DNA of 64,000 nt, taken from contig NZ_JACHIW010000001.1 in NCBI RefSeq assembly GCF_014203395.1, positions 4,385,501 through 4,449,500 of the forward strand, read 5' to 3'. A model generated the notes under the pieces. It made no database searches, was not told the origin of the DNA, and was given only the letters and a program-made list of their open reading frames with translations. Below, one piece after another: positions 48,845 through 64,000 of this stretch (position 1 is its first letter; each line of letters opens with the position of its first letter). This DNA comes from Saccharopolyspora phatthalungensis. Lineage in GTDB: Bacteria > Actinomycetota > Actinomycetes > Mycobacteriales > Pseudonocardiaceae. The position numbers and the translations under genes were made by a program.

Positions 48845-48869
48845 GCGCCCCCGGCGATTTCATTGAGCG

Positions 48870-49295
48870 TTTTCCATCCTGATCTTTGCAGGTCAGGTGG
48901 GGTGGACGTGGGCGGCGAGGTGTGAGTGGGCTGGTCAGAGTCATGATCATCAAGGGTGATCAGCTGACACCGTCCCCCCGGCCCACGGCAGCGTGATCGC
49001 GATCACGGCCGGGGAAAACGAAATAGGGTGGCCCTCGGCGGGTTCGGATGGGTTCGTGACAACACAAAGAAACCTCGCCGGGGGCGCAGCGCGCATTATG
49101 TACCGGGGCCTGCCGCCGGTCTCCACCCGCACGCCGTCAGCGACGTGATCTCCGGTCTGGCGCAAGGAAATCGGCTCCCGCCGGCGCGAAGCCACCCCCG
49201 GGCGTGCAGGCGGTCATCGCGCCGGCCGTGCTGCGTCACGCCCGACGCTTGCCGGGCATGGCCGGGGGGCGACGCCGTGTCGGGTTCCGCGATCG
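48870..49295 (+). pseudogene. Degenerate 5' end of a related IS transposase, inverted
   Basis: On the plus strand this segment mirrors the start of the transposase at 50199. Shared stretches include TTCGTGACAACACAA, GGCTCCCGC, CAGGCGGTCATCG and CGTGCTGCGTCACG, in the same order. It has frameshifts and cannot encode more than the first third. It ends about 10 nt before the stop of the intact transposase, so the normal right end of that element seems replaced by this inverted left end. Confidence 0.7.
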
Positions 49296-49305
49296 TGGTT
49301 GTTCG

Positions 49306-50199
49306 TCAGCGGGTGATTTCCAGGTTGGTCAGCACCAGCAGTGCTCGCAGCAGGCGGGTGGCGTTGCGGGTGTGCATGCGCAGCCGGGTGAGGATGCGCC
49401 AGTTCTTCAGGTCGGCGAAGGCGTGTTCGCAGGCGGCGCGTTCGCGGGCGAGGAGCTGGTTGGCCTGCTTCTGGGCGTCGGTGATCGGGTGGCAGCGGGC
49501 GGCGCGGCGGCCGGTGATGATGACCGGGTCGTCGGGGTCGTCTTCCAGTCCGGTGAACCCGAGGTCGGCCACGGCGCCCAGGCCGTGCTCGCGGAGTTTC
49601 GTGGTGAGCTTGTTGCGGCGGGAGGTGGTGATCTCCGAGGCCCGGCCGGGTGCGGCCGCGGAGATCCACAGCAGGTTGCCGCAGGCGTCGGTGAGGGCGA
49701 GAAACAGCAGGCCGTGGGCTTTGTGTTTACCGCTGTAGTTTCGTCGGTTGTCACGGCCGCTGCGGCGCTGGGTGCGCACCAGGGTGCCGTCCAGCAACAC
49801 CATGTCCGCTCCGGCGCGGGTGGCTTTGGCCGGCACCCGGTCCAGGCGGGGGGCGCAGGCGGCCAGCAGGTCGATGACCTCGGCGACCCACCTGCTGATC
49901 GTGGAGGCCGATACGGCGTTGCCCCCGGCCATATCCAGCAGCCGCTGATCGTGACGCAGCACGGCAAGCACGATGACCGCCTGCCTGCCCGGAGTGACTT
50001 TGCGCCAGCGGGAGCCGATCTTCTTGCAGTGGGCGGTGATCAGCGAGGCGACGGAATCGATCGTGGTCCTCGACAGCGGAAGCCGGACCTGATACATAAT
50101 GGGCTCTGCGCCCTCGGCGGGGCTCGATTGTGTTGTCACGAACCATTCAAACCCGCCGAGGGCGTTCGTCTTCTCTTCCCGCAACATGATCATGATCAC
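49306..50199 (-). CDS. IS5-type transposase (DDE_Tnp_4)
   Basis: A 297-residue transposase. An HTH region (VSASTISRWVAEVIDLLA) precedes the DDE core: MVLLDGTLVRT (D), VADLGFTGLEDD (D) and ACEHAFADLKNWRIL (E), with KHKAHGLLFLALTDACGNLL between. Start could be GTG 50199 or the ATG at 50184; the first residues are not conserved. It looks full length. Confidence 0.85.
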   Translation of the reverse strand: MIMIMLREEKTNALGGFEWFVTTQSSPAEGAEPIMYQVRLPLSRTTIDSVASLITAHCKKIGSRWRKVTPGRQAVIVLAVLRHDQRLLDMAGGNAVSASTISRWVAEVIDLLAACAPRLDRVPAKATRAGADMVLLDGTLVRTQRRSGRDNRRNYSGKHKAHGLLFLALTDACGNLLWISAAAPGRASEITTSRRNKLTTKLREHGLGAVADLGFTGLEDDPDDPVIITGRRAARCHPITDAQKQANQLLARERAACEHAFADLKNWRILTRLRMHTRNATRLLRALLVLTNLEITR

Positions 50200-50323
50200 G
50201 CTGCTTCCGAGTCCCCGTCCGGTGTCAGATGATCAACAGAAACGATCATGCCCTTGACCAGGCCACCCACACCTCCACCACCCGCGTCCACACCCCCTGA
50301 CCAGCCAAGATCAGGATGGAAAA

Positions 50324-50692
50324 GAACCAATGGAAATCAACGCGTCGATTTCCATTGAAATGGGTTAGGGAGTAGACCTTGATCATCTGTCGGTAACCCG
50401 GACAAGATCACTAAAATTCGACTCAACGTAACCATTCGTCACGTTCTGCTACTTCGCGGGCGGCGGTGCTTCGCGGCGGTGGTTACGTTGTGTCGCTGCC
50501 GCTGTGGGTGGTGGCGGTTGTGGTTCGTGGGTGCTTCGGTTCGCTGCTGCCGTGTGGCGTCCTTTGGGGGCGGTCTGGTGGCGGTACTGCCCTGGTGGGC
50601 TGTTGGCGACGCCGGGAGTGCGGCAAGTGCCTGGGAGGACCGGCCCAGAGGCTCTACCGGGAGGTCGGCACATGCGTCGGTATAGTCGCAAC
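50324..50692. other. Intergenic region: hairpin repeat, 11-bp inverted repeat and G/T-rich tract
   Basis: Next to the IS lies a hairpin of the dispersed family (CAATGGAAATC 50328-50338 / GATTTCCATTG 50347-50357). Further right are perfect 11-bp arms CAACGTAACCA (50424-50434) / TGGTTACGTTG (50480-50490). From about 50484 to 50640 the plus strand is strongly G/T-rich with GTGG repeats. No gene was accepted. This is where the left end of the Cas1/polymerase island should lie. Confidence 0.45.
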
Positions 50693-51235
50693 ATGATCAC
50701 TCAAAATGCAATTTCCCTCTATGCGGCAATTGTTTCAAGCTACGCTGCAATTGTGGCTACAGGGGCCCTGCTGTGGCAGGTTGTTAGCTGGCGGAAATCT
50801 GGCCCGGTTCTACTCGTTAAGGCTGCACCTGTCGCCCGAAATGGTCTCAACGACTTGCGGCATTTCTATTTCAAGATATCGGTAACCAACACCGGAAGAG
50901 AGCCGATTCAGATCTATGAGGTCGGCGTAAGGCGTGCATTCTCGATCAGGACTCTAGTCTATAAATATATCCTCAGACGTCTGGATTTTTCGCCGTATTT
51001 TGGTGCTTGGGTTACTCGGCTCGATAAGACGCGAAGATTGGAAGGCGGACACGAGGCGTTCTTTGAGACTGTGGAAGTGCCTGAAGATGTATGGGCAAGA
51101 ATGGTGGCCTCAAGGGGAACACGTCCTTTTGCGGCCGCCTACGGCCGGAGTTTTCACGGAAAGAGGATAGGTAGGCCAGGACATCCCGCTCTCCGCTGTT
51201 TAGACCCGGATTATGATGGCCCCTTGTTGTGGTAG
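50693..51235 (+). CDS. Hypothetical membrane-anchored protein, low GC
   Basis: A 180-residue protein from ATG 50693. One N-terminal membrane helix (LYAAIVSSYAAIVATGALLW) is followed by a soluble beta-rich domain (FYFKISVTNTGREPIQIYEV) and a charged C-terminus. I do not recognise the family. Base composition and codons (many A/T-ending) differ sharply from the chromosome, which suggests horizontal transfer. It converges on the polymerase gene. An upstream in-frame GTG start (50504) would read through the G/T-rich tract and was not used. Confidence 0.6.
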   Translation: MITQNAISLYAAIVSSYAAIVATGALLWQVVSWRKSGPVLLVKAAPVARNGLNDLRHFYFKISVTNTGREPIQIYEVGVRRAFSIRTLVYKYILRRLDFSPYFGAWVTRLDKTRRLEGGHEAFFETVEVPEDVWARMVASRGTRPFAAAYGRSFHGKRIGRPGHPALRCLDPDYDGPLLW

Positions 51236-51323
51236 TCGTAGTTATAAGCGCCAGCAGGAAGTCAACGCCGCACAGCGGCGCCAGCTGGCGTCGTCTTACA
51301 GATCCGCATCCATGTTGATCAGA

Positions 51324-53363
51324 TTAGCGTACTCTGCCTCGGGCCAGTACTGGTCTTACAGCTACTGCGCGGTTGTGTCGTTTGCGGCATGCGTCGGTGG
51401 CGTACTTCTGGCGTCGGGTGAGTTTTTGTCCGCATCCGCAGGGGCAGAGTCGTTGTGGGTTGTGGTGGTGTTTCCGGTAGGCGAGTACTGATTCCCATTT
51501 CGCGTATCTGGTGTGGTCGGGTTCCCGCTTCCAGGGGTGCTCGGTGTGTTGTTGGTCGAGTTCGGTGATTGCGGTATCGACGGCGAGCCGGGTGAGTGAT
51601 TCGCTGACGGCTGGACGCGGGGATACGTCACCTGCTCGTATTCGTTCGATCTCTCGTGCACTCAGCCCGATGTGGTCGGCGAGCTGCTGGGTGGTGTGGC
51701 TGGCCAGTGCGGGCAGGACCAGATCTGTAAGGGCGTCGTTGGGGCTGTCGTAGTCGGTGAGAACGTGGTCAGGGCTGATGCCGCCGGTCTGCCATTCGTC
51801 GAGCTGGTTGGTTTCCTTGCCGATGTGGTGCAGCCGTGCCAGGCGCACAGTACGGCGTTGAAGCAGTCCGGTTGTACTGCTGTGGCAGGGTTTTCCGTCT
51901 GGTCCGTTGGCTTTGTGCTCTGGTCGTCGGCGGTACTGGTGCAAGATCTGGCGGTAGGTCTTGAGCTGGACCAAATCGTCGGGTGCTGGCCGGATGTCGC
52001 GATATTGGTGATCGTCGTAGTTCCACCTCTCGGTGGTGGTGCGGTAGGTGGTGCCGTGGGGGTCGTAGCGGTTGCGCCACGGGAGATCGAGCCAGGTCGC
52101 GGGGTCGCTGTCGTAGGGAGCGATGAGGTGGAAGCGTTGCGGGTCGGTGCCGGGCGGGTGGCTGGCGGCGGCGACGTGGCCGACGAGCAGGAAGTTGAAC
52201 GGTTTGATCTGCTGGCGGTAGGGCTTGCCCGCGTTCCAGCTGGTGAAGGGCCGCCACTGCGTCGGTGACGAGATGCTGATGCGAGAGAGTGCGGGGCGGT
52301 CCAGCCAGTCAGGTTCGCCCGTCGCTCTTCGGTGAGCGTCGCTGATGATGAGTTGCCACAGGTGGCGGATCCAGTCGCGATCTGCCGAGTCCGGGTCGGT
52401 GGGGTTGAGGAGATGCCCCAAGCCGTGTTCGCTGGTTTTGTCGATCTCGATCAGACCTGTGTCGCCACCGTTGGCGTCCTCACTGGTCGACTTGATAGCG
52501 GGAATTCCTGCGGGATCGAGTCGGTACAAGGCGTAGCGTTTCGCCGAGATCGCATAGCACCAGCCGGTGAATTCCGCTTTCAGGATGTCGGTAACCGCGT
52601 CGGGTCGGTAGGGGTTGAGTCGGGCGAATCGCTGCCGGATCGTGTCGACGTGATCGAGGGTCAGTGCCCGCACTGCTGCTCGGCCATCGGGCATGGTGTG
52701 CGGGCCGCCGGGGCAGTCGATGAGTGTGCCGTGTTCGTTGGCGACGATGGCCATGCTGTCGGTGTCGCAGAATGTCCAGACACCGCCCGCGTCGGTGACC
52801 GATCGTTCAAGCATGGCCAGCATCAGCCGTGCCGCGCCTGTGATGCATGCGGCGATCGGTGGAAAGACGTATTCACCGGGTTTCTCGGGTGCGGCGACGG
52901 CTGCTTTCCAGGGCTGTTCGGCCGCGCCGTGGACGGTGACGTGTGTGCGTTGTCCTGTCGCGAGTTCTTGCCGGTCCATCTGGGCGAAGATTCCGTAGCT
53001 GCCCGCGTTGGCCAGGACCTTCAAGAATGCGGCCAACGTCGGATCGCTGTCCTTGACCGCCTGGCGTTGTTCGACCACGGTGCGGAAAAAATCGTCGTCG
53101 ACAGGATCGACCGGGACCTGTCCGCGTAGCCGCACCGTGTTCAGTGTGGACAGTGTCTTTCCGGCAGGCACGAACCGTACGGCCTTGACCACACGGGGCG
53201 GCTTTCCGGATAGCAGGGTGGAGGCGATGAGATCAGGAATCGTGTACCACAGCGGTTTTTCGGCGTGCAGTGGATTTACGCCGATGTTCCAAGCGGTGTC
53301 CCGGCCGTACTGGGCACGTACCGGCAGGACGTCACCGTCTGGGATGACCTGAGCGATTCCCAC
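51324..53363 (-). CDS. Family B DNA polymerase, C-terminal part after a frameshift
   Basis: 679 residues continuing the polymerase from 53332-54612 in another frame. Motif B appears as LKVLANAGSYGIF (Lys115, Asn119, Tyr123-Gly124) and motif C as WTFCDTDSMAI (Asp200, Asp202), so the palm site is intact together with motif A of the other part. The C-terminal ~200 residues carry a HTH-like stretch (QQLADHIGLSAREIERIRAG) and a zinc-finger-like CPCGCGQKLT...C. GTG 53363 is only the first start codon in frame; the same frame is open and protein-like further upstream (CFDPAAWREFVGIAQV), so it was once one gene. Confidence 0.8.
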   Translation of the reverse strand: MGIAQVIPDGDVLPVRAQYGRDTAWNIGVNPLHAEKPLWYTIPDLIASTLLSGKPPRVVKAVRFVPAGKTLSTLNTVRLRGQVPVDPVDDDFFRTVVEQRQAVKDSDPTLAAFLKVLANAGSYGIFAQMDRQELATGQRTHVTVHGAAEQPWKAAVAAPEKPGEYVFPPIAACITGAARLMLAMLERSVTDAGGVWTFCDTDSMAIVANEHGTLIDCPGGPHTMPDGRAAVRALTLDHVDTIRQRFARLNPYRPDAVTDILKAEFTGWCYAISAKRYALYRLDPAGIPAIKSTSEDANGGDTGLIEIDKTSEHGLGHLLNPTDPDSADRDWIRHLWQLIISDAHRRATGEPDWLDRPALSRISISSPTQWRPFTSWNAGKPYRQQIKPFNFLLVGHVAAASHPPGTDPQRFHLIAPYDSDPATWLDLPWRNRYDPHGTTYRTTTERWNYDDHQYRDIRPAPDDLVQLKTYRQILHQYRRRPEHKANGPDGKPCHSSTTGLLQRRTVRLARLHHIGKETNQLDEWQTGGISPDHVLTDYDSPNDALTDLVLPALASHTTQQLADHIGLSAREIERIRAGDVSPRPAVSESLTRLAVDTAITELDQQHTEHPWKREPDHTRYAKWESVLAYRKHHHNPQRLCPCGCGQKLTRRQKYATDACRKRHNRAVAVRPVLARGRVR

Positions 53364-54612
53364 GAATTCCCGCCACGCGGCGGGATCGAAACATCGATCG
53401 AGGGTGATCGTCCAACAGGGTTTGAACGTTTTCTGTGGCGTCGATGGCCTCCACCCGGTCTCGGGTGAGGAATTCCCACAGGTTCATCAAGGCGTCGACC
53501 GTGGGGTACATGCTGGTGAAGTCGCATACCACCACGGGTACCGGGGTGTGGCGGATGAAGGTTTCCGCCCGGCCGCCGTAGAACGCCGACATGGCCCAGC
53601 CCAACACGTCAGCGGGGAAATCGGGCATGCGATCGAGTATCGGGGTGATTCCCATCGAGCGGAGATAGGATTTTGACAGCGAGGCGGGCGAATACGCTTT
53701 GGTTTCTTGCAGGCTGATCGGGTGGCGTGCGTATTCGTTGGTGGTTTTGGCGTACAGTTCCGCAGTTGCTTGCACGTCGCGGCGGCAATAGTCGATGTAG
53801 TCGGGGGTGATGCGCCCGTGTTCTTCGGCGGTGATTTTGCCGTGTTGCACCCCGAATGCCTCGCATGCGCTGGCCAGGCTGTGGCTCTTGCCGGTCAGGG
53901 AGAACACCAGGGTGCGCAGGTCGAGAAAGTGACCCCGGAAGCGGGTTTGCTTGTCCAGCGCGGAGAATCCTTTCAGGGAGCGTTTCGAGTCGATCGACTT
54001 CACCCGCACTCTGGGCCGCCACTGGACCGGGTTGCCGTCGGCGTTGGTGGACAGAGCCAGGGAGAATCCGCCTGCGAACCGGGCGGCTGTGCTGCCGTCG
54101 CGTGCCTCGCTGGCCGATCCTGCCAGGCGGGAGAGGTCGAACGGGGCGTTGAACATCACCAGCGTGGCCGGTTCGCGGTCGACCCGCTTACCCCAGCGGT
54201 CCCGGTAGGCCACGCCGTTGATCCACTGCTCGATGAACTCGCTGCGGGAGTACAGCCGTAGCCGCCAGTCCGGCTCACATCCGAGGTAGAACAGATCCAC
54301 GTTCGCCTCATGAGTGCGGACATAGTCGGTCAAGGTGGCGTAGCCGTCGGGGTCGGTCTCCGGAAGGTCGTCGGCGTAGATCAGCCCTTCGGCAACGGTG
54401 GTCACGGTGATCTGCCCATCGGGTGCGGTGTCGACATAGCAGTACCGGTAACACCCGAACGTCAACGCCTGCGCCGTGTCGATCGTGGTTTCGGTGTCGA
54501 CGACCAGCACATGCCGGGTTTCGGGCGTGCGATCACTGCCGTGTCGTTTCCTGCGTTCGCGTGGCTGGTCGGTCCACCCGCGTACCGATACCGGCAGGAA
54601 GTCACCGCTCAC
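53332..54612 (-). CDS. Family B DNA polymerase, N-terminal part (exonuclease and motif A)
   Basis: 426 residues beginning MSGDFLPVSVRGWTD. 3'-5' exonuclease motifs: Exo I VVDTETTID (Asp39, Glu41), Exo II MFNAPFDLSRLA (Asn155, Asp159), Exo III DYCRRDVQA (Tyr275, Asp279). Polymerase motif A is VVCDFTSMYPTVDALMNLW (Asp364). The last ~25 residues after QTLLDD are out of frame; one base is missing or extra near 53405-53412. The ATG overlaps the HNH gene stop (ATGA). No accessory replisome genes are near, as expected for a self-replicating mobile element. Confidence 0.8.
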   Translation of the reverse strand: MSGDFLPVSVRGWTDQPRERRKRHGSDRTPETRHVLVVDTETTIDTAQALTFGCYRYCYVDTAPDGQITVTTVAEGLIYADDLPETDPDGYATLTDYVRTHEANVDLFYLGCEPDWRLRLYSRSEFIEQWINGVAYRDRWGKRVDREPATLVMFNAPFDLSRLAGSASEARDGSTAARFAGGFSLALSTNADGNPVQWRPRVRVKSIDSKRSLKGFSALDKQTRFRGHFLDLRTLVFSLTGKSHSLASACEAFGVQHGKITAEEHGRITPDYIDYCRRDVQATAELYAKTTNEYARHPISLQETKAYSPASLSKSYLRSMGITPILDRMPDFPADVLGWAMSAFYGGRAETFIRHTPVPVVVCDFTSMYPTVDALMNLWEFLTRDRVEAIDATENVQTLLDDHPRSMFRSRRVAGIRGNRSGHPRR

Positions 54613-55370
54613 GCCGCACCCTTGTCCGTCTCGGACAGACCTGCGGACAGCAGTCCGGCGACGTGATCAACAGTGCCGAATAACGCCTGTGCCGCGTCGA
54701 CCAGCGACGCGAAATCCTCTGCCGTCGCGGTGTCCGGGGCCGGTACTGTCAGCAACGCCTGTGCGGCGCTCATGGCCTGCCGTACGGCGTCGTCGAGCAA
54801 TCCGACAGTGGCGTTCGCCTGGTGCGGATCGGCGAGCAGTTGCCGGAGTCCGGGCAGCAGTGCCGCAGGGTCACCCCGCAGCGCGGTCACCACGTCGGTG
54901 AGCGGGTGGGCATCTCCGTATGCCTCGGATGCCAACGGCTCCACCAGGGCGGCCAGTCCAGCAAGCGACGTCAGGCGGTCCGCGTCGGCGGGGACGGTGG
55001 CCGGCCGCACCGGCACCGCCGCATTGCTGCCGTGCCATGCCTGCGTGCTGCCGCCGAGATCCAGTAGCCGGGAAACTCCCCGCTGCGACAACACCGCAGC
55101 CTCGGCCACACCATCGACCGTGTTCCCGCGTTGGGCATAGAGGGCGAGCACGCTGAACAGTCCGCAAAGTAACGCGGCGAACCGGTCGGCGTCGGTGCGC
55201 GGTGTCTTGTGGTTCAGCGGCGTTCCCGCCGCGTATTGCCACGTCGTCAAGAACAGCCGGTGACACTCACGGCACACATTGACCGTCAGCGTGGCATGGT
55301 TCGCACGTCCGGCAACGTGATGCGCCTCCACCCGTCCCGACTGTCCACATGTGACACATGTCGTAGTCAT
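54609..55370 (-). CDS. HNH-like zinc protein with helical C-terminal domain
   Basis: 253 residues. The first 37 form a zinc-HNH pattern: CVTCG (Cys5, Cys8), VEAHHVAGRAN and VNVCRECHRLF (Cys-x2-Cys-His). This fits an HNH nuclease core, though it is short. The remaining ~200 residues are all-helical, Ala/Leu-rich and unfamiliar. It is coupled by ATGA overlap to the polymerase and 3 nt downstream of the next gene, so it is part of one minus-strand operon. HNH genes are common companions of Cas1 and PolB in casposons. Confidence 0.65.
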   Translation of the reverse strand: MTTTCVTCGQSGRVEAHHVAGRANHATLTVNVCRECHRLFLTTWQYAAGTPLNHKTPRTDADRFAALLCGLFSVLALYAQRGNTVDGVAEAAVLSQRGVSRLLDLGGSTQAWHGSNAAVPVRPATVPADADRLTSLAGLAALVEPLASEAYGDAHPLTDVVTALRGDPAALLPGLRQLLADPHQANATVGLLDDAVRQAMSAAQALLTVPAPDTATAEDFASLVDAAQALFGTVDHVAGLLSAGLSETDKGAA

Positions 55371-55373
55371 GAT

Positions 55374-55868
55374 TCAGTCGTCCTTCTCGTAGATGGAATC
55401 AACGTTGATGTGATTGGTGTTTTCGTAATCGTCGAGCGGATCAAGCCGGGTTTCCAGTTCGTATTTCGGCACGTCCTCTCCATCTTTCTTATAGCCGCCG
55501 ATCATCTTTCCGTCGAATTTGCTCAATGAATCGGTCTTGCCGCTGTCCAGGTAGCGGCCGATTGCGTTCCAGTGCCTGGCCACCGTGGACCGGTCTTTCT
55601 TGCGCAGTCCGGATACAGTGACGATCCCCTCGGTGGTGACCACCCGCAGCGTCCGACGTGCCTGGAGATACTTCTTGTAGCGTTCCGGATCCCGCCGCGC
55701 CTGATCAGGGCGCTCGGGTGTATTGCCGTGCCCGCGTGCTTCCTTCTGCGACTGTCCTGCCGCGTGAGATTCGCGGGTGAATCCCTTACGTTCTAATCTT
55801 CGCCGATGGGCCGTCGGATTGCCGTAGGCATCGACCATTTCGTCCCAGGATTTACGCGGCTTCCCCAT
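55374..55868 (-). CDS. Hypothetical protein, first gene of the HNH-polymerase operon
   Basis: 164 residues, very hydrophilic, starting MGKPRKSWDEMVDAYGNPTA. The N-terminal 75 residues are basic and disordered; the middle (VTTEGIVTVSGLRKKDRSTV, then RHWNAIGRYLDSG) looks like a small folded DNA-binding unit; the C-terminus is acidic (ends YEKDD). I do not recognise a family. Its place ahead of the HNH and polymerase genes suggests a role in replication or DNA processing of the element. Confidence 0.6.
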   Translation of the reverse strand: MGKPRKSWDEMVDAYGNPTAHRRRLERKGFTRESHAAGQSQKEARGHGNTPERPDQARRDPERYKKYLQARRTLRVVTTEGIVTVSGLRKKDRSTVARHWNAIGRYLDSGKTDSLSKFDGKMIGGYKKDGEDVPKYELETRLDPLDDYENTNHINVDSIYEKDD

Positions 55869-55968
55869 GTCGCTACACCGCCAAGGTCAGGCGTGCGCAG
55901 CACGCTATTCGACTGAAACCGGTAGCTACGGAGGCGCGAAATACTGCCGCGCGAAACGGTGTGTGTGT

Positions 55969-56052
55969 TATCCTGGCGGTACACATGGAGTTTCACTGAG
56001 TCCCATTTCCAGGGGGCACCCGCGACCGGAATTGCGGGTGCCCCTCTTTTTG
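55969..56052 (+). ncRNA. Candidate short plus-strand transcript ending in an intrinsic terminator
   Basis: A near-perfect rho-independent terminator for plus-strand transcription lies at 56013-56052: stem GGGGCACCCGC (56013-56023) / GCGGGTGCCCC (56034-56044) followed by TCTTTTT. No plus-strand gene ends here; both neighbours are on the minus strand. A -10-like TATCCT is at 55969-55974, so a ~65-70-nt RNA could be made, containing at most a 4-codon frame (MEFH). A weak -35 makes the promoter uncertain. Confidence 0.35.
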
Positions 56053-56065
56053 GTGCTGTAGCCGT

Positions 56066-56860
56066 TTACTCGAATTCCTCCAACGCTGTGATGGCGTGGG
56101 TAAGCCATTCCGACCATGCGCGGGCCTGGCGGACGGCGTGCTCAACGTCGTCGTAGTACTGATCGGCCAGCGCTTCGGCCAGTGCTGTTCCCATGTCGCG
56201 GGTGGCCCGCTTGCCGGAGAACCGGGCCAGCAACCCGCGCCTGTCGTCCAGCCGTGCCAGGTCCCGCACCAGCGTCCGGGCCGCCTTCTCGGCGGTCTCC
56301 TCCGGCGGGTACCACTCCTGCCCATCGTCACCGTCGTCGGTGCCGGGATCGGGACTGGTGGCCAAACTGGCCACCTCACCGCGCCGGTATTTCGACACCG
56401 TGGAATGCGAGACCCCGCAGGCGCGGCCGATCTGCCGGTCCGACCACTCCGGATGTTCGTCCACAAGCCGCTTCACCGCCGCGACTCGTTCGGTACGCGT
56501 CAGCGGCAGCCCGGCTGTGGCGGCCAGCGTCAGACCGTGCCGGTAGGCCGCCCTGTGTGGGTGTTCGCCCTCCTCGGCCGGAATGATCCGCACGTCTGCC
56601 TCACTGGCGTCGACCTGGTGTAAGGCGTGGTAGCGGTGCCAGCCGTCGGCCAGGATGAATCGCCCTGACTCCGGGGCGGGCACCACGTCCAGCGGTGGCA
56701 GCACCGACCGGGTGTCGTCGCGGTACAGCTCCGCGAAGTCCGCGACCCGCTGGCGGTTTAACTCCTGACGCGGCCACGCGGACACATCCGCCTCGATCCT
56801 CTCCAACGGCACCGCGATCACCCCGCCGCCGCTCGCGGTCGCCTCGCTGGTCTGTGTCAT
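56066..56860 (-). CDS. ParB/Srx-domain DNA-binding protein
   Basis: 264 residues. N-terminal ParB/sulfiredoxin-like domain (IAVPLERIEADVSAWPRQEL, FILADGWHRYHAL with the GxHR-type loop), then an HTH (SDRQIGRACGVSHSTVSKYR). A Glu/Ala-rich helical tail follows. Such proteins act in plasmid partition, as nucleases, or as element-encoded regulators. It starts 4 nt inside the end of the preceding small HTH gene (ATGA), so the two form an operon. Its own downstream spacer carries the plus-strand terminator. Confidence 0.8.
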   Translation of the reverse strand: MTQTSEATASGGGVIAVPLERIEADVSAWPRQELNRQRVADFAELYRDDTRSVLPPLDVVPAPESGRFILADGWHRYHALHQVDASEADVRIIPAEEGEHPHRAAYRHGLTLAATAGLPLTRTERVAAVKRLVDEHPEWSDRQIGRACGVSHSTVSKYRRGEVASLATSPDPGTDDGDDGQEWYPPEETAEKAARTLVRDLARLDDRRGLLARFSGKRATRDMGTALAEALADQYYDDVEHAVRQARAWSEWLTHAITALEEFE

Positions 56861-57165
56861 CGCGTCTCACCGCCGGCCTGCTCCGGCCGCATGGTGTGAC
56901 GATCGGTTCCCGGCTGAGCGTGCGTCACCGAACGGGACCGCCTCCGAGAACTCGTGCCCTTTGGTGGCCGTCCCCGTCGGGGCGGCACGAAGGTCTTGGC
57001 GTATTCGGTGATCTCGGACTCCACGAACAACCGGCCCAACGGCGTAGTCACATACGGAATCCGGTCCTGGGCTACCAGACGCTTGAGACTGTCCGGGCCG
57101 ATCTTCAGCCGCGCGGCTGTCTCGGCCGCACTGAGGAACCCAAGTTTGTCCGCAATGGAAGGCAT
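56857..57165 (-). CDS. Small HTH protein (excisionase-like)
   Basis: 102 residues from ATG 57165. MerR/excisionase-type winged HTH: FLSAAETAARLKIGPDSLKR, then PYVTTPLGRLFVESEITEYA; the tail is very basic (PPRRGRPPKGTSSRRRSR), like an AT-hook. Typical of element-encoded directionality factors or regulators. It is divergent from cas1 across 424 nt and coupled to the ParB-like gene. Confidence 0.72.
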   Translation of the reverse strand: MPSIADKLGFLSAAETAARLKIGPDSLKRLVAQDRIPYVTTPLGRLFVESEITEYAKTFVPPRRGRPPKGTSSRRRSRSVTHAQPGTDRHTMRPEQAGGETR

Positions 57166-57589
57166 ACCGTGCCCCACTTCTGCACTCGGCGAATCGGCAA
57201 ATAGGCCGCGCCGGAAAGGCGGCCCGAATCCAGTGAAACACCTCCCGATCTGAAATGCCAACCCCTTTATGGCGAACACCGAGTGCAGATCAGGACGATT
57301 GTTGAGCATCTTTAATATGTTTCGATCGGAACGTCATGTCGCTTAGTTATTATTGCGCCCGCGGTTCAATTGAATCTTTTGTTGTCCATCGCATTAATGC
57401 GCTCATTGAGCGCGTTGTTCATGGTGGTTCGGTCATGCCGGTCAACGAGTTTCCGTGCGTGTGCGCGAATCCGGCCATCACGCACGATCACGGTGCTACG
57501 CTCGTGCGCGGAACAACCGCATATGAAGCGACCCCGGCCGACGCGCCAACGTCGAACCGGGGTCTGACACCACGAGAGAGGTAGCTCCC
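57166..57589. promoter_or_regulatory. AT-richer divergent control region upstream of cas1
   Basis: 424 nt between the divergent small HTH gene and cas1. The part 57290-57430 is clearly lower in GC than its surroundings and holds GCATTAATGC. A hairpin GACCCCGG (57530-57537) / CCGGGGTC (57557-57564) lies just before the cas1 ribosome site GAGAGAGG (57574-57581). A short frame (57336-57584) ends at the SD but is not convincing as a gene. Confidence 0.45.
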
Positions 57590-59137
57590 GTGATGCTGAC
57601 TCAGCAGCGTAACGCGCCCACACGCGCTCACCGCACCCTGCCCGAGGGTGCGACCGCCACCGCCGCCATCGTCTACGGCCGCACGAGCACCGATCCGCGT
57701 GTGATCATCGCCGACGGCCGCAATGTTCAGCTCCGTGTCGAACGCGGGCAGCTGTCCATTCAGGACGGGATCGGCCAGCACCGCCGTATCCGCACCCTGC
57801 CCCGGATCGAACGCGACGTGCGCCGCATCATCGTGTTGGCCGACAACGGATATGTGTCCTGGGATGCCGCACGCTGGTGCGCCGATGTCGGGATCACGGT
57901 GGTCCAGGTCGACCGGTCCGGCCGACAGATCACCGCCACCGCTGAGCCCCGGCCGGGTACCGACGACGTGCGGCTGCGGCGAGCGCAAGCGTTCGCCAGC
58001 GACGACGGACCACACGCGGCCATCGGTCTGGACATCGCGAAATACATCCTCGCTCGCAAGCTGGACGGGCAGGCCGCCATCGCCACCGAGTACCTGAACA
58101 ATCCGGACGCCAGCGACATCATCCGTCAGCACGCCGCCGAAGTTGCCGCCAGCGAGGACATCGGCACTGCCCGGGTGCGGGAAGGTGCGGCAGGTGCGGC
58201 GTACTGGCAAGCCTGGTCCGGGCGCGTCATCGTGCCTTTCGAGCCGCGTGAGCTGCGCACCGTGCCTGCGCACTGGACCACGTTCGTGGCCCGGAGATCC
58301 TGCATCGACACCGCCAAGACCAACGGCCACCACGCCGCCGACCCGATCAATGCCCTGCTGAACTATTCCTACTGGCTGGCCGAGACTGAATGTCGCCTGG
58401 CGTGTCTGGCTGTCGGGCTCGATCCCGCGATGGGGTTCCACCATGCCGACAAACCCAACCGTGACTCGCTCGCCCTGGACCTGCTGGAAATCCTGCGCCC
58501 CGACATCGACCGGTTCGTCCTCGACCTGCTGTGCACCAACGGCCCGATGCGCTACCTCTCCCCGAAACTGTTCGTCGAGGAATCCGACGGGCATTGCAGG
58601 CTCGTCCCACCCCTGACGCACCTGATCGCTGAACAGTGCCTCGACTGGACACGCAGCATCGCGCCCCACGCCGCACACATCGCCCGCATGCTCGCCGCGA
58701 GCGCGAAAGGCGACGTCCGCCCCGCAAAATCCCGCAAGCAGAGCCAGCCGGGCACCCGCCGGAAGTACACACCCGCCAGGCCACTACGCCTGTCCGGGAC
58801 GGTCACGGTCGAGCGGATCATCCCCGATCACCTGTGGGCCGACATCGCTCCATTGCTTCCGCCAGAGCCGCAGAAGCGAGGTGTCGGACGTCCCCGCGCC
58901 GACAACCGCGCGGTGCTCGCCGGGATCGTGTGCGTGGAACAACTCGGCTGCACCTACAGCAGAATTCCGCCCACACTCGGAGCCAGTGCGAGTACCTGCC
59001 GCATCCGACTCGACGCGTGGCAGGAAGCAGACATCTGGCCCGCTATCGAGCGTGTCCTCCACGACAGCGACCACATCCGGCAGCTACGTGCCGAAGCCGA
59101 CGCCACCCCGGCCCTGAACGGCCGCGTCGGGGATTGA
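57590..59137 (+). CDS. cas1: Stand-alone Cas1 integrase fused to a transposase-type HTH domain
   Basis: 515 residues, much longer than CRISPR Cas1 (~300-340). Residues ~25-365 are Cas1: beta-rich N-domain, then the catalytic set Glu198 (ARVREGAAGAAYWQAW), His285 (GFHHADKPNRDS) and Asp297 (SLALDLLEILRP), with NALLNYSYWLAETECRL before it. After a basic linker (370-400), residues ~402-495 match the N-terminal HTH domain of IS5-type transposases (IIPDHLWADIAPLLPPEPQK, GRPRADNRAVLAGIV). No cas2, cas3/cas9 or repeats are near. A C-terminal HTH is known in casposases. Start GTG 57590 has SD GAGAGAGG at 8 nt; ATG 57593 is the alternative. Confidence 0.88.
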   Translation: MMLTQQRNAPTRAHRTLPEGATATAAIVYGRTSTDPRVIIADGRNVQLRVERGQLSIQDGIGQHRRIRTLPRIERDVRRIIVLADNGYVSWDAARWCADVGITVVQVDRSGRQITATAEPRPGTDDVRLRRAQAFASDDGPHAAIGLDIAKYILARKLDGQAAIATEYLNNPDASDIIRQHAAEVAASEDIGTARVREGAAGAAYWQAWSGRVIVPFEPRELRTVPAHWTTFVARRSCIDTAKTNGHHAADPINALLNYSYWLAETECRLACLAVGLDPAMGFHHADKPNRDSLALDLLEILRPDIDRFVLDLLCTNGPMRYLSPKLFVEESDGHCRLVPPLTHLIAEQCLDWTRSIAPHAAHIARMLAASAKGDVRPAKSRKQSQPGTRRKYTPARPLRLSGTVTVERIIPDHLWADIAPLLPPEPQKRGVGRPRADNRAVLAGIVCVEQLGCTYSRIPPTLGASASTCRIRLDAWQEADIWPAIERVLHDSDHIRQLRAEADATPALNGRVGD

Positions 59138-59160
59138 TTGATCAGGACACGGACACGATC

Positions 59161-59201
59161 GAGCGGCCGGGGGCGACAGTGATGCCCCCGGCCGCTCTGG
59201 T
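59161..59201. terminator. Terminator after cas1
   Basis: Perfect 14-bp stem GAGCGGCCGGGGGC (59161-59174) / GCCCCCGGCCGCTC (59184-59197), 23 nt after the cas1 stop, followed by TGGTTT. Confidence 0.85.
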
Positions 59202-59227: not shown

Positions 59228-60043
59228 GTGACCGCTGTGATTGATGTTCGCCACACCGCGCATGACGACGTGGTGGAACGCGCTGAACGTGCCCTTTCCG
59301 TACGGCTTGACCGGTCGTCCGTTGTGTACGGGGAGTCCGGCGCGTCTGAGGGTTACCGCACCACGGCCGGCACATGGGTGCGCATTGAGCGTCGCAACCG
59401 TGAACGTGCTGGCGGGCAAGCGTGGATCGGCCTCGAAGAATCCGCCACCATTCCCGGCGTCCGCAAACCCTCGTGGTTCCAGTCGGCGACGTGGGATGAC
59501 AAAGCGCGGGGTGTGGTGTGGCGTGCGGACGAGGTACAGCTCATCACGGCCCCGACGGTCAGTAGCCTCGATACCGCCTTGGCTCTGCCGGATTCGTGGT
59601 GGGCTGGCCTGTCGTCATCGCTTGATCAGCTGGCCGCGTACTCAACCACGCGTATCGGCATGAGTCAGCAGCACGTGACCCGCCGCATTGTCGAGGTTTT
59701 CGGAGACGGTGCGGATACCACGGTGGACGAGTGGAGAACCGCGCACACGGATGTTCACTGGGACAACGTGACTACCGACGGATATCTGATCGATTGGGAG
59801 GATTGGGGCCGTGCGCCACGTGGGCTAGATGCGGCATGTTTGTGGCAAGCGTCTTTGCCGTGCCTGGAGCTGGCCGCGCGGGTCCGGCAGATATTCGCCG
59901 CCGATCTGGATACGCGTTCGGGGAAGTTGGCCATGCTACTTCAGGCAGCGAACGCGGTAAGGGCCGCTGCCCGGCTCGGCGTGCCGACGCCATTGTCGGG
60001 GCCTGCGCGGGCAGCGGCCGATCAGCTACTTGCCGAGCTGTAG
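59228..60043 (+). CDS. APH-fold kinase-like protein
   Basis: 271 residues from GTG 59228. The kinase catalytic loop is HTDVHWDN (Asp175) and the metal site YLIDWEDWG (Asp189), as in aminoglycoside/choline kinase-type enzymes; the N-lobe is poorly conserved (GASEGYRTTAGTWVRIERRN). The substrate is unknown. Its 3' end overlaps the 3' end of the convergent JmjC gene by 18 nt, and the two may work together on the small peptide encoded at 61299-61448 (inference). Confidence 0.75.
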   Translation: MTAVIDVRHTAHDDVVERAERALSVRLDRSSVVYGESGASEGYRTTAGTWVRIERRNRERAGGQAWIGLEESATIPGVRKPSWFQSATWDDKARGVVWRADEVQLITAPTVSSLDTALALPDSWWAGLSSSLDQLAAYSTTRIGMSQQHVTRRIVEVFGDGADTTVDEWRTAHTDVHWDNVTTDGYLIDWEDWGRAPRGLDAACLWQASLPCLELAARVRQIFAADLDTRSGKLAMLLQAANAVRAAARLGVPTPLSGPARAAADQLLAEL

Positions 60044-61213
60044 AAATCCGGCCGCCAGCTCTGGCGTCAACTCGGCGCATACACCCTCGTCTACGAATGT
60101 GCGCGCGATGGCGTCGGCAGGAACGCCGGTTTCGGCCGTGACCTGTTCGATGTTGACCGGGTTGCCGGAGAGCAGTTTGCGAACAACCGGTTCGGCTTTC
60201 GCCGCGAACACAAGTTCTTTGCCGACTGCCCACACCGTCACATCGTCAGGGCCGGTGATGATGTGCGGCGGAAAGTCGGTCAGGCAAACCACGTCGGTCA
60301 ACCCGCCGAACACGCCCCCAGTGATGACCCGACGTCGCGGCGGTCGTTCGGTCTCACGCGCTAACAGGTACACGTCTTGCGGGCAGCGGGCGACGAGTTG
60401 CGGCACCAGCTCCGCTAGCGTGTCGGTGTTGCCGTCCCGGTCCAGATCAAACCGGAACGCCTCGTCCTGCCGGGACCGGTCAGCGATCCATGACAGCCAG
60501 TCCACCCCGGTTCGCTTCACGAATCCGAACGTGGCGTGAAGCGAGTAACCGGCTCGGTCGTCGGCTCGGTCTGTGCGGGTCGCCCGGTGCCAGTAGCCGC
60601 GTGGAATGTGGAGCACGTCCCCGGCTCGCATCGTGCCCGCCCAGAGGACTGCTTCGGGCGGTGCATCGGCGCGTTCCACGTCGCGGTACATCGGCGCTAC
60701 CCGTGATGTGCCACGCACTTCCCAGGACTTTTCGCCGCCGAGCTGCACGACCACAACGTCATGGTCGTCCCAATGCAGGTCGAAACCGGCAGCGTTGCTG
60801 GTCGTCAGGTAGGTATTCACCTGAACCAGCTCACGGGACCACCATTGCAATGCTTGGCAGGCGATTTCCATTGCGGGATTGAACGAATCCAGCGTATCCA
60901 GGACGAGCGTGCTTCCCTCTCTGATGAAGGAGGCTAGCCGGTCCATGCGTGCCATCTGCCGAGCTTGACCTCTACGGCTTGTGACAGCGCGCGTGTACCG
61001 GTCGGGGTGCAGCTCTTCACCGTGTTGGAAGACCCTCAGTTGTGGGAATTCCAACGACCGGCGCATGACGATGTCCAGCAGTCGGGTTGGAGTGAGGATC
61101 TGCTGGCACAGCTCGGGATTGGGCATCTTGCCATAAGCGACACCAGAGCCAAGCGGGCGAGAATCCTTCCATTCCAACGCTTTTTCGATTGATGAAACAA
61201 GTGCGTGATCCAC
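60026..61213 (-). CDS. JmjC/cupin-type Fe(II)/2-oxoglutarate oxygenase
   Basis: 395 residues from GTG 61213. The iron facial triad is visible as His147-x-Asp149 in FDLHWDDHDVVVVQLGGEKS and His209 in GDVLHIPRGYWHRATR. The C-terminal ~120 residues form a winged-helix-like region (VRKLLSGNPVNIEQVTAETG). The arrangement equals bacterial ribosomal-oxygenase-type (Cupin_4, YcfD/ROX-like) hydroxylases, which modify ribosomal proteins; variants next to small peptide genes hydroxylate peptides. It follows a 49-codon gene and a strong hairpin. Confidence 0.82.
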   Translation of the reverse strand: MDHALVSSIEKALEWKDSRPLGSGVAYGKMPNPELCQQILTPTRLLDIVMRRSLEFPQLRVFQHGEELHPDRYTRAVTSRRGQARQMARMDRLASFIREGSTLVLDTLDSFNPAMEIACQALQWWSRELVQVNTYLTTSNAAGFDLHWDDHDVVVVQLGGEKSWEVRGTSRVAPMYRDVERADAPPEAVLWAGTMRAGDVLHIPRGYWHRATRTDRADDRAGYSLHATFGFVKRTGVDWLSWIADRSRQDEAFRFDLDRDGNTDTLAELVPQLVARCPQDVYLLARETERPPRRRVITGGVFGGLTDVVCLTDFPPHIITGPDDVTVWAVGKELVFAAKAEPVVRKLLSGNPVNIEQVTAETGVPADAIARTFVDEGVCAELTPELAAGFLQLGK

Positions 61214-61448: not shown

Positions 61449-61649
61449 TGGGATCCCCTCCTTCCTGCTTCCACGCGGCTTGCACCGCTCTTCCTTCCTT
61501 CCACCCCGGCTACGGCGGGACAGCCGCAATCCGGGTGAACCATGCGGCCCGCCGAATCACCGGTTCCGCGTAGTCCGATCACCGGTATCGAGTAACCGTC
61601 TTCCGGTCGGGTGCCGGTCGGGGGCGAACATGCGACACCCGCACCGGGG

Positions 61650-61940
61650 TTAGACGAGCGCTGCGGGCTTTCTGCGAGCAGCGCAGTGGGCGGCACAGTC
61701 CCGGCATCCGACCACGCTGACCTGAGCATGTGTCGGTGCATCGCCACCGATCACCCGCATGCCGCACAACGTCCACCCACGCCGAGCGGGGTCACGTTCG
61801 TGGGCAGTGCGATGGTGATCGACCCAGATCAAGACGGGGTCGGGGTCGGTGTCGTCGGAGAGGAACCACGCGACCGGCGTCCGGGCCTGTGGCAGAGCGA
61901 TCGTGGCACCAGGAGTACGGACAGGGAGACCACCGATCAT
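61650..61940 (-). CDS. Small hypothetical protein with CxxC
   Basis: 96 residues from ATG 61940 after AAGGAGCGGAGGGG. It has a beta-like core (ARTPVAWFLSDDTDPDPVLI), TLCGMRVIGG and a C-terminal VVGCRDCAAHCAARRK that could bind zinc. Function is unknown. It is one of a chain of small minus-strand genes above the peptide gene. Confidence 0.5.
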   Translation of the reverse strand: MIGGLPVRTPGATIALPQARTPVAWFLSDDTDPDPVLIWVDHHRTAHERDPARRGWTLCGMRVIGGDAPTHAQVSVVGCRDCAAHCAARRKPAALV

Positions 61941-61968
61941 CGCGACCCCTCCGCTCCTTGAAGGCGCT

Positions 61969-62127
61969 TCAACACGCCAGGACACCCCGTGCACGGCACG
62001 GGGGCCGGTCCGTTTGGGTCCGCAGGCGCAAGGACACCCAGTGGCACTCCGCACAAGGACTCAGCGCCCCGTAGAGAACGTAATGCTCGACTCCGTTGCG
62101 GCTGACAAGCTTCCGGTAGCCGGTCAC
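61969..62127 (-). CDS. Small hypothetical protein, 52 residues
   Basis: GTG 62127 overlaps the stop of the preceding gene (GTGA). Reads TGYRKLVSRNGVEHYVLYGA then SPCAECHW and a C-terminal Cys pair; a small zinc-binding fold is possible. A longer in-frame start (62223) exists but would overlap the upstream gene by 100 nt. Function unknown. Confidence 0.45.
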   Translation of the reverse strand: MTGYRKLVSRNGVEHYVLYGALSPCAECHWVSLRLRTQTDRPPCRARGVLAC

Positions 62128-62351
62128 GACGGGATCACCCCGCTGATCGTGGGCCACAGGCTGCCGCGTGAAACCCCGCTCCGGGCGGTTTCGGCGGACG
62201 CCTCGGTACAGGCGGTCTGCCACTCAGCGTCGTAATGAGTCCAGCGTTCGTGTTCGCGGACTTCGTGGTAAATCGGATCGGTGTGCAAGCACGTGGACTG
62301 GCTGCATCGCCACACAGTGGCCCCGTCAGGGCCGAGAGTTCGACGTGGCAT
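62124..62351 (-). CDS. Small hypothetical protein, 75 residues
   Basis: Starts MPRRTLGPDGATVWRCSQST; CxxxxCLHTDPIYHEVREHE and HYDAEWQTAC contain Cys/His residues that suggest a zinc ribbon or treble-clef-like fold. Its ATG overlaps the stop of the gene above (TAATG) and its stop overlaps the gene below (GTGA). Function unknown. Confidence 0.5.
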   Translation of the reverse strand: MPRRTLGPDGATVWRCSQSTCLHTDPIYHEVREHERWTHYDAEWQTACTEASAETARSGVSRGSLWPTISGVIPS

Positions 62352-62479
62352 TACTGATCACCCCTGGCCGTTCCACGCCGAGCTGGGTAGCACGACCCAA
62401 CCGCGCTCGCCTCCGAGAACATCCGTGCCCGTGCGTCCATGCGTTGGCCCGTGTCGGCCGCGTTGCCGGTACTCGTCAT
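62351..62479 (-). CDS. Very small hypothetical protein, 42 residues
   Basis: From ATG 62479 with GAGGGATGG upstream: MTSTGNAADTGQRMDARARM, then FSEASAVGSCYPARRGTARG. No recognisable domain. Accepted mainly because its stop forms a TAATG overlap with the next gene. Confidence 0.35.
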   Translation of the reverse strand: MTSTGNAADTGQRMDARARMFSEASAVGSCYPARRGTARGDQ

Positions 62480-62890: not shown

Positions 62891-63782
62891 AAGGTTGTCC
62901 CGTAATCACGGGTCTCGGTGGCAGTGGATCATGTACGGGTGCAGGTGATCGGGATTGACCAGCCGGCGTGGATACCGACGTTCACGGGGCTGTCGGTGCG
63001 GCAGTTCGGCAAGCTGGTGAGCATCGTGCGAGGTCGTGGCGCCGAGCAGACCGGCGCCGGCCGCCGGTGGGGGCTGTCGCTGGACGACCGGGTACTGCTG
63101 GTCGCGGTGTACTACCGCACCAACCTGACCTTGCGACAGGTCGCGTTGCTGTTCGATATTTCCAAGTCCGCGGCCGGGCGGGTCGTGGACCACCTGGGCC
63201 CGTATCTCGCGTTGTCGCCGGCCATGCGCAAGCACAGCCCGGACACGGTGCTGATCGTGGACGGCACTTTGGTGCCCACCCATGACCGAAGCGTGAGTGC
63301 GTCGTCGAAGAACTACCGGTACTCGACCAACCTGCAGGTCGTCATCGACGCCAACACCCGCCTGACGGTCGCGATCGGAAAACCCCTGCCGGGCAACCGT
63401 AACGACTGCCGTGCCTACACCGAATCGGGTGTCGACCAGGACTGCTCGGGCGCGCAGGTGATGGGTGACGGCGGCTATCAAGGCAACCGTGAGGTGATCA
63501 TGCCCTATCGCAAACCCACTGACGGCAGCGAGCTTCCCGAGTGGAAAGAGGAGCTCAACAGCGTTCACAGGCGAGTCCGCGCCCGCGTCGAGCATGCACT
63601 GGCGCACATGAAGTCCTGGAACATCCTCCGTAACTGCCGACGCAAACGTGACGGCGTCTGGCACGCCGCCAGGGGCGTGGCCCTCATGCGCAACCTCGTG
63701 ATGACTCACTGATGCCAATCCCCCCACACGGGACTCGTTTCCCTTGCACACCACCAACACTTGATCATTACGGGACAGGCTT
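62891..63782 (+). mobile_element. IS5-type insertion sequence, 892 bp
   Basis: Flanked by TA duplications in the middle of an XRE gene. Ends are AAGGTTGTCCCGTAATCA (left) and TGATCATTACGGGACAGGCTT (right), matching as inverted repeats over TGTCCCGTAAT with AAG at the tips. Removing the element restores the reading frame exactly, so the insertion is clean and recent. Confidence 0.9.
62918..63712 (+). CDS. IS5-type transposase (DDE_Tnp_4)
   Basis: 264 residues from GTG 62918. HTH with LTLRQVALLFDISKSAAGRV, then DDE residues in VLIVDGTLVPTHD (D), VMGDGGYQGNREVI (D) and RARVEHALAHMKSWNILRNC (E). Full length, so probably active. Confidence 0.9.
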   Translation: MAVDHVRVQVIGIDQPAWIPTFTGLSVRQFGKLVSIVRGRGAEQTGAGRRWGLSLDDRVLLVAVYYRTNLTLRQVALLFDISKSAAGRVVDHLGPYLALSPAMRKHSPDTVLIVDGTLVPTHDRSVSASSKNYRYSTNLQVVIDANTRLTVAIGKPLPGNRNDCRAYTESGVDQDCSGAQVMGDGGYQGNREVIMPYRKPTDGSELPEWKEELNSVHRRVRARVEHALAHMKSWNILRNCRRKRDGVWHAARGVALMRNLVMTH

Positions 63783-64000
63783 TAGCGTGCGTGACCAATT
63801 ACCACCGGACGTCTATTTCTCACATTAAAGCGGGTCGCCAATTTGCCGAACGAAATTTCTGGGCTAAGGCAGACGAGGCGCTCGGCGCGGGTGGAGCGCT
63901 AGTGGCACACTACGACAACGTATGTGACCAAGAGGAACAATTGAGGCGAGCCGAGGCCGACACTCTACAGTCCGAGCGCCGAGCGCGAGCACAAGCACTG

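Follow-up and report, generated by a model that had tools for sequence, protein, structure and literature searches.

Casposons have been proposed as the ancestors of the CRISPR adaptation machinery. The casposons studied at the bench in the literature covered here are archaeal, and actinomycete (Streptomyces) cases were later re-read as viruses. We analysed a window of 64,000 nucleotides of the Saccharopolyspora phatthalungensis chromosome (the whole stretch of DNA under study, G000:C1:4385501-4449500; genome 8.54 Mb) carrying a block that we read, with a probability of roughly 0.88, as a 14,998-bp casposon, likely inserted by a Cas1-type integrase with an IS5-transposase DNA-binding domain and with a frameshifted family B DNA polymerase as its predicted copier. 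It would be a casposon whose ends, duplication and target are defined and in which no capsid genes were detected, and its genus contains a culturable species, S. spinosa.

According to the accessible text of its description, casposon family 2 (Methanosarcina mazei, Methanolobus, Methanococcoides) has, as here, a Cas1 with an extra C-terminal part, a polymerase with a C-terminal helix-turn-helix (HTH), an HNH gene (HNH-like in S. phatthalungensis) and two HTH genes, and in that family the HTH is common to Cas1 and polymerase (PMC4046053). In M. mazei, too, the casposase produces duplications of 14 bp (PMC6977970, in the part available). The S. phatthalungensis element differs from family 2 in its Cas1 tail, a DUF4096 domain with no detectable relation to the archaeal tails (hhalign 2.1%, 105 archaeal relatives), in its separate Cas1 clade, its actinomycete host and its insertion in a palindromic repeat. 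Unlike in family 2, no tRNA gene was found in the window.

Family 3 (NitAL212-C1, AceAut-C1, HenMar-C1, StrAlb-C1) shares with the element its bacterial hosts and its HNH (or HNH-like) and HTH genes, and the Cas1 C-terminus of AceAut-C1, zinc-binding plus HTH, has the layout that we found in 88 relatives lacking the DUF4096 fusion (hereafter non-fused). The accessible text of the description makes no mention of DUF4096 in this family (PMC4046053); the Cas1 of StrAlb-C1 is without an extra domain, and that element has since been reinterpreted as a provirus (PMC5894146, in part). The polymerase has the same motif C, CDTDS, as the group named for it, PolB_CDTDS, which in the available text has a casposon-encoded member in A. 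boonei (PMC7544198), and it is assigned to that group by motif only. With insertion sequences (IS) of the IS5 group the Cas1 tail has the N-terminal part of the transposase in common, the catalytic remainder being lacking in the casposon protein. No description of the element, of a Cas1-DUF4096 fusion or of a palindromic target was found in the open-licence PubMed Central literature, and it is the Cas1 tail, i.e., the fusion of Cas1 to DUF4096 in a casposon, that is new here.

Boundaries, integrase and polymerase

The element occupies positions 50362-65359, where coordinates above 64000 carry the window numbering on into the next stretch of the contig (L014; position = coordinate minus 64000). 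Its right end lies 1.4 kb beyond the window, so the terminal repeats had been invisible by eye, and the inverted repeat was revealed by self-comparison of the extended region. The two repeats were identical in 211 of 214 alignment columns (2 mismatches, 1 gap), and both sides of the element were flanked by ATTTCCATTGAAAT, a perfect 14-bp duplication. Published casposons have inverted repeats in the range 25-602 and target duplications with a median of 15 and a range of 1-27 (PMC4046053, as far as its text is available), and with its 214-column repeats and 14/14 duplication the block has the ends and target duplication by which the casposon superfamily is delimited. The core of the repeat end, searched at up to 2 mismatches, occurred twice in the S. 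phatthalungensis genome, namely at the two ends of the casposon.

The original prediction had proposed a casposon-like block at 50324..59201 without cas2, effector or CRISPR array, and had suggested a search for terminal repeats and a target duplication. The casposon reading held, while the true extent proved to be larger and to run past the end of the window. The search returned the 214-bp repeats and the 14-bp duplication, with comparable structures in two other genomes of the genus. No cas2, effector or CRISPR array was present in the element, and the two CRISPR loci of the genome lie elsewhere.

The predicted stand-alone Cas1 was confirmed (PF01867, 126.9 bits) and its catalytic set was read as Glu/His/Glu (E198, H285, E300). 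These residues aligned with those of the M. mazei casposase and were invariant across a 22-row alignment (A1) that includes S. phatthalungensis. Of the 23 proteins listed as having both Pfam domains, A1 comprises all except P0016, a partial sequence of 309 amino acids (aa); it likewise omits P0032, a 'transposase' of 340 aa that has DUF4096 as its only one of the two domains. A maximum-likelihood tree was built from 63 rows, consisting of 21 fused proteins (those of A1 except P0017), 19 of the 96 non-fused proteins listed, 11 of the 120 archaeal proteins listed and 12 of 13 references, the one left out being the weak Cas1 of the S. phatthalungensis type I-E-like locus, which was not found by phmmer. 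A branch at 100/96 separated off the seven CRISPR Cas1s, the S. phatthalungensis Cas1 fell within a 44-row clade of fused and non-fused relatives (100/99), and the archaeal casposase relatives grouped together (100/100). The Cas1 of the casposon is outside the CRISPR Cas1s sampled, in a tree with few CRISPR subtypes, no inferred root and long branches that meet.

An AlphaFold2 model of Cas1-DUF4096 (predicted local distance difference test, pLDDT, 84) had 6opm, the M. mazei casposase, as its best PDB match in Foldseek (2.6e-17). VIA-align gave a tie of the Cas1 model between 6opm and A. fulgidus Cas1 (28.7 and 29.1), and casposase and CRISPR Cas1 were not separable for this protein by structure comparison. 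A second solo Cas1 of 399 aa is encoded elsewhere in the genome (G000:C1:3345423-3346505, minus strand). It was 38% identical to the casposon Cas1, had no DUF4096 and fell in the same clade, with its nearest tree row in another genus of the same family (G052); no CRISPR array was found in the 20 kb around it (L017/L003).

The family B polymerase had been predicted with all exonuclease motifs and motifs A-C. These were present (DTETT, FNAPFD, YIDYCRRD, DFTSMYP, KVLANAGSYG and CDTDS, of which we take the first three to be the exonuclease motifs and the last three to be A, B and C, respectively), but they are spread over two overlapping open reading frames (ORFs; 54612-53332 and 53363-51324) and not one, where the nearest relatives have a single protein of ~1090 aa. 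The N-terminal piece was 81% identical to residues 1-402 and the C-terminal piece 70% identical to residues 419-1082 of P0122 (1091 aa, Saccharopolyspora sp. NPDC003752). Because the pieces align to consecutive parts of P0122, the split would most simply be one frameshift, either a mutation or a sequencing error. The CDTDS motif was shared by 101 of the 120 polymerase relatives listed, S. phatthalungensis included. A polymerase profile gave two chance-level matches only among PDB sequences (E 0.38 and 0.95), and a model of P0122 (pLDDT 75) had a best Foldseek E of 7e-9 with low TM-scores of 0.25-0.32 by query length. The 50 Foldseek matches listed are, by title and family, family B polymerases, one of them (9leb) being titled just 'DNA polymerase holoenzyme'.

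Cas1 and polymerase clusters lay on contigs of identical length in 8 of 120 cases, S. phatthalungensis included (120 listed of 185 Cas1 matches, compared with 120 listed of 2963 polymerase matches), and five more contig pairs differed by one base in length. When lengths were shifted by 3-60 either way as a control, the mean number of coincidences was 0.53 and the maximum 3. Among the remaining predicted genes (Table 1), the HTH/ParB-like proteins were supported by profile matches, and the HNH-like protein kept its motif, visible by eye, with weak PHROG matches.

In the mechanism that we propose, Cas1-DUF4096 would bind the inverted repeats, with its Cas1 domain supplying catalysis, take the excised or copied element and join its two 3' ends to the target, one on each strand, at points separated by 14 bp. 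Gap filling would then leave the 14-bp duplication; the duplication was observed and the chemistry would be that of the casposases studied. By comparison with published casposons, the polymerase, the HNH protein and the two HTH proteins would have roles in copying, excision or target choice. The element is likely a mobile casposon. The S. phatthalungensis copy has an intact Cas1 frame, its polymerase gene is broken and an IS lies inside it, so it would at best move with the help of host replication or of another copy. The predicted label 'self-synthesising' is weakened for this copy because the polymerase gene is frameshifted.

The Cas1 tail and the choice of target

DUF4096 scored 61.3 bits in the casposon Cas1, and the tail matched positions 4-97 of the 258 of NF033580 (IS5 family transposase) with 79.3 bits, where the cut-off for the whole protein is 110. 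Cas1 and DUF4096 occurred together in 23 of the 120 proteins listed, from which A1 was drawn. A zinc motif followed the Cas1 domain in 88 of 88 non-fused proteins vs 0 of 22 fused ones, and the non-fused tail consists of a zinc-binding part and an HTH (these 88 are the proteins of 480-590 aa among the 96 listed; the archaeal tails compared were 105 of 120 listed). In hhalign comparisons, the HTH of the non-fused Cas1s matched that of the casposon polymerase tail at 97.5% (E 5e-12), whereas the fused tail matched the polymerase tail weakly (13.9%, E 0.002) and the non-fused tails at 2.9% (E 0.016). Archaeal Cas1 tails matched none of the fused, non-fused and polymerase tails (0.1-2.1%, the lowest value being that against the polymerase-tail HTH). 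By these profiles DUF4096 resembles the archaeal tail only in where it sits, with no detectable relation. The fused rows showed 2 label changes in the best tree and were compatible with a single clade (p-AU 0.417), and either tail may be the older.

In the M. mazei casposase, deletion of the tail abolishes integration, and its authors suggest that the tail possibly recognises sequence beside the target (PMC6977970, in the text available). Because that casposase needs its tail for integration, the foreign DNA-binding domain of the S. phatthalungensis protein would sit at a position that matters, and because DUF4096 takes the place of this integration-required C-terminal part, its likely role is to recognise the repeats or the target.

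In the joined flanks, the duplication forms the central 14 bp of GTCGATTTCCATTGAAATCGCC, in which 9 of 11 pairs are complementary; 0.06% of the 22-mers of the window score as high. This sequence differs by a single base from the dispersed palindrome GGCGATTTCNNNNGAAATCGCC, of which the genome contains 20 exact copies; the reversed control gave 0 sites. The insertion of the casposon splits the centre of a palindromic repeat. At an unrelated locus in S. spinosa, the flank of a right end, GTTTCGCGCGAAATCGCCGGGC, fitted the same repeat in the same cut register except for its first base, and this copy also appears to split a palindromic repeat. The targets of two further elements of the genus, in genomes G145 (5 of 11 pairs) and G280 (3 of 11 pairs), were not significantly palindromic. 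The G145 target belongs to a family, CCCAAGTTCNNNNGAACTTGGG, of which that genome has 3 sites, one of them mismatched and one 92 bp past the element; three other genomes had none. As far as sequence can tell, the palindromic target is one clear and one half-seen case out of four, and a palindrome rule is not supported as general because the G145 target scores 5 of 11 pairs.

It is possible, but doubtful, that an actinomycete casposon lineage swapped the C-terminal DNA-binding part of its Cas1 for an IS5-transposase domain and thereby its targeting, with insertion precisely in the middle (14 of 22 bp) of dispersed palindromic repeats and not at tRNA or EF-2 genes. If true, a Cas1 integrase would here have been re-aimed by natural shuffling of domains between two transposase classes that are unrelated. 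A tail swap makes it testable what in a Cas1-type integrase decides the insertion site.

A CRISPR repeat, which the flank beside the left end resembled at first sight, was also considered as the target and rejected, since the two arrays of the genome have other repeats and the left flank is the dispersed palindrome. Of the two CRISPR loci (L016, L019), both of ordinary appearance, one has a repeat beginning GTTGCGATCCTCATCGGCCCC and its own Cas1; the second array we take, from its repeat, to be type I-E-like.

Relatives in the genus and alternative readings

At up to 2 mismatches, the end core (AGGGNGTAG-N19-AACCCGGACA) had 14 matches in 8 of 22 genomes of the genus. Seven were exact, with two each in S. 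phatthalungensis, S. spinosa (G112) and G145 and one in G280, the other end of which had 1 mismatch. Six cores had two mismatches; those at G280:C1:2861724 and G112:C1:3628577 lay at or next to matches to inverted-repeat DNA and may be relics, and the remaining four look like chance. The reversed end core, used as a control, gave 1 match in S. phatthalungensis and 2 in S. spinosa.

The G145 element is 7,432 bp long, with a frameshifted Cas1 beside its left end, a 13/14 duplication and no polymerase, and encodes a protein similar, as judged by eye, to the APH-like cargo of the casposon. G280 holds a mini-element of 3,026 bp (G280:C1:733788-736813; L064 5789-8814) with a 14/14 duplication, in which no Cas1 was seen and which was possibly mobilised in trans. 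Its ORFs, by eye, are a pyridoxal-enzyme-like one and a transposase. In S. spinosa the right end is kept and the left end is lost where an IS-like remnant (by eye) adjoins Cas1.

The block is not fixed in the genus: Cas1 was detected in 3 of 22 genomes (S. phatthalungensis, S. spinosa, G145) and the polymerase in one (S. phatthalungensis). More widely, at 1e-20 the full Cas1 query had matches in 5 of the 297 genomes searched from the family, of which two were partial and stopped short of DUF4096, and at 1e-35 the Cas1 profile had matches in 2 of the 394 searched from the class, S. phatthalungensis included. The N-terminal polymerase piece was found in 1 of 61 relatives and the C-terminal piece in 1 of 397 genomes of the order, in both cases S. 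phatthalungensis only. Comparison with related genomes showed this variable presence and yielded no exact empty site, the left and right flanks being adjacent in none of the genus genomes searched. For the right flank, every one of the 22 genus genomes gave a match, which in most cases fell in a gene situated ~2 kb further to the right; three genomes had a match starting ~15 bp past the duplication, and there the palindrome was lacking. The left flank, which is separated from the casposon by an IS5-type element (Table 1), had long matches (86-89%) in 6 other genus genomes. In G256 a single contig carries both flanks, separated by 13.6 kb that include other genes. PLSDB gave 429 Cas1 matches, of which the 20 listed were all below 36% identity (18 annotated as cas1/Cas1, two unannotated). 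The C-terminal polymerase piece had no match in plasmids or phages, the inverted repeat had none in plasmids, and a scan of IMG/VR with the Cas1 profile gave none that was confirmed.

Three other explanations were weighed. One takes the block for a nested composite, made up of a simple Cas1 transposon bounded by these repeats and, inserted into it, an unrelated polymerase/HNH/HTH module. This would fit the G145 element, where Cas1 comes right after the left repeat and there is no polymerase, and S. spinosa, where homology starts at the Cas1 start codon. However, six Cas1-DUF4096 contigs, that of S. phatthalungensis among them, also hold this polymerase as matched by identical length (including two from Saccharopolyspora, one from Pseudonocardia and one from Streptomyces), and the polymerase-tail HTH matches that of the non-fused Cas1 tails. 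The left part of the S. spinosa copy may simply have been lost, because an IS-like remnant adjoins its Cas1. We regard such nesting as highly improbable.

The 'family 3 casposons' of S. albulus and S. noursei have been reinterpreted as Toil-like proviruses that encode Cas1 (PMC5894146, in the text available), and the present block could in the same way be a Cas1-carrying tectivirus-like provirus with a capsid gene too diverged to be seen. The chance of this appears remote: no capsid, packaging ATPase or lysis family was found in Pfam or PHROGs among the ORFs given to these searches (not every ORF was given to both), no larger ORF with a coding-like pattern is left over, and INPHARED had no polymerase match and 3 distant Cas1 matches. 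That the solo Cas1 is left over from CRISPR-Cas, or has been domesticated, and sits in an ordinary genomic island is barely credible, for although the genome has two CRISPR loci, one of them with a Cas1 ~35 kb before the window, the casposon Cas1 groups apart from the CRISPR Cas1s sampled, the block has inverted repeats, a target duplication and a patchy occurrence, and similar bounded elements lie at other loci of relatives. The reading as a casposon follows from the ends, the duplication, the gene set and the tree, and not from the fold.

Features of the element and its surroundings

The coordinates of the features are given in Table 1. The segment 59139-62371, which includes the JmjC/cupin gene, was 89.6% identical in S. 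spinosa.

Table 1. Features of the S. phatthalungensis casposon and its left border, in (extended) window coordinates.
Feature	Position	Strand	Remarks
IS5-type element, ~1.48 kb	about 48852-50335		right end ~a dozen bases from the casposon target duplication
Left target-site duplication ATTTCCATTGAAAT	50348..50361	.	14 bp, identical to partner 65360-65373 (L014:1360-1373)
Left terminal inverted repeat	50362..50575	+	214 bp, begins GGGTTAGGGAGTAG-N19-AACCCGGACA
Family B DNA polymerase, C-terminal piece, 679 aa	51324..53363	-	motif B, motif C CDTDS, C-terminal HTH, Zn-like CxCxC
Family B DNA polymerase, N-terminal piece, 426 aa	53332..54612	-	exonuclease motifs, motif A; PF03175 4.8e-8
HNH-like protein, 253 aa	54609..55370	-	CxxC..HH..GRxN..CxxCH by eye; weak PHROG HNH matches, E 0.021 and 0.63
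Small protein, 164 aa	55374..55868	-	ORF only; without Pfam family; one PHROG match of unknown function, E 0.026
ParB-like HTH protein, 264 aa	56066..56860	-	PHROG 1033 8.2e-17; HTH_23 2.6e-5
HTH_17 / excisionase-like protein, 150 aa	56857..57309	-	HTH_17 1.4e-4; PHROG 66 2.8e-4
Casposase, 515 aa	57590..59137	+	Cas1 domain residues 46-316 fused to DUF4096 residues 412-486
Cargo: APH-like kinase-fold protein (weak)	59228..60043	+	PF01636 0.0075, below curated cut-off
Cargo: JmjC/cupin-domain protein	60026..61213	-	PF08007 8.9e-19
IS5-type DDE transposase within the casposon (later insertion or passenger)	62918..63712	+	PF01609 5.5e-19
HTH_31-type regulator	63761..64000, on to 64591 extended	+	PF13560 6.7e-6, first 80 aa, 26.8 bits vs cut-off 27
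Right terminal inverted repeat	65147-65359 (L014:1147-1359; end at G000:C1:4450859)		beyond window

The pair of APH-like and JmjC cargo genes recurred at 69% DNA identity in G091:C5 (L069 4477-6616), a genome in which Cas1 and the end core were not found. The IS5-type element beside the left end had two more copies at 100% in S. phatthalungensis among the matches listed, and G280 had many copies at 81-82%. L063 (G000:C5), at 593-1365 and 3705-4036, has what may be the remains of another casposon-like element, comprising an 81% match to 61602-62367 and two short polymerase pieces. Finally, a lone 44-bp piece of the inverted repeat (84%) lies at S. phatthalungensis C2:1907423-1907466 (L067 6424-6467) and is perhaps the relic of another insertion.

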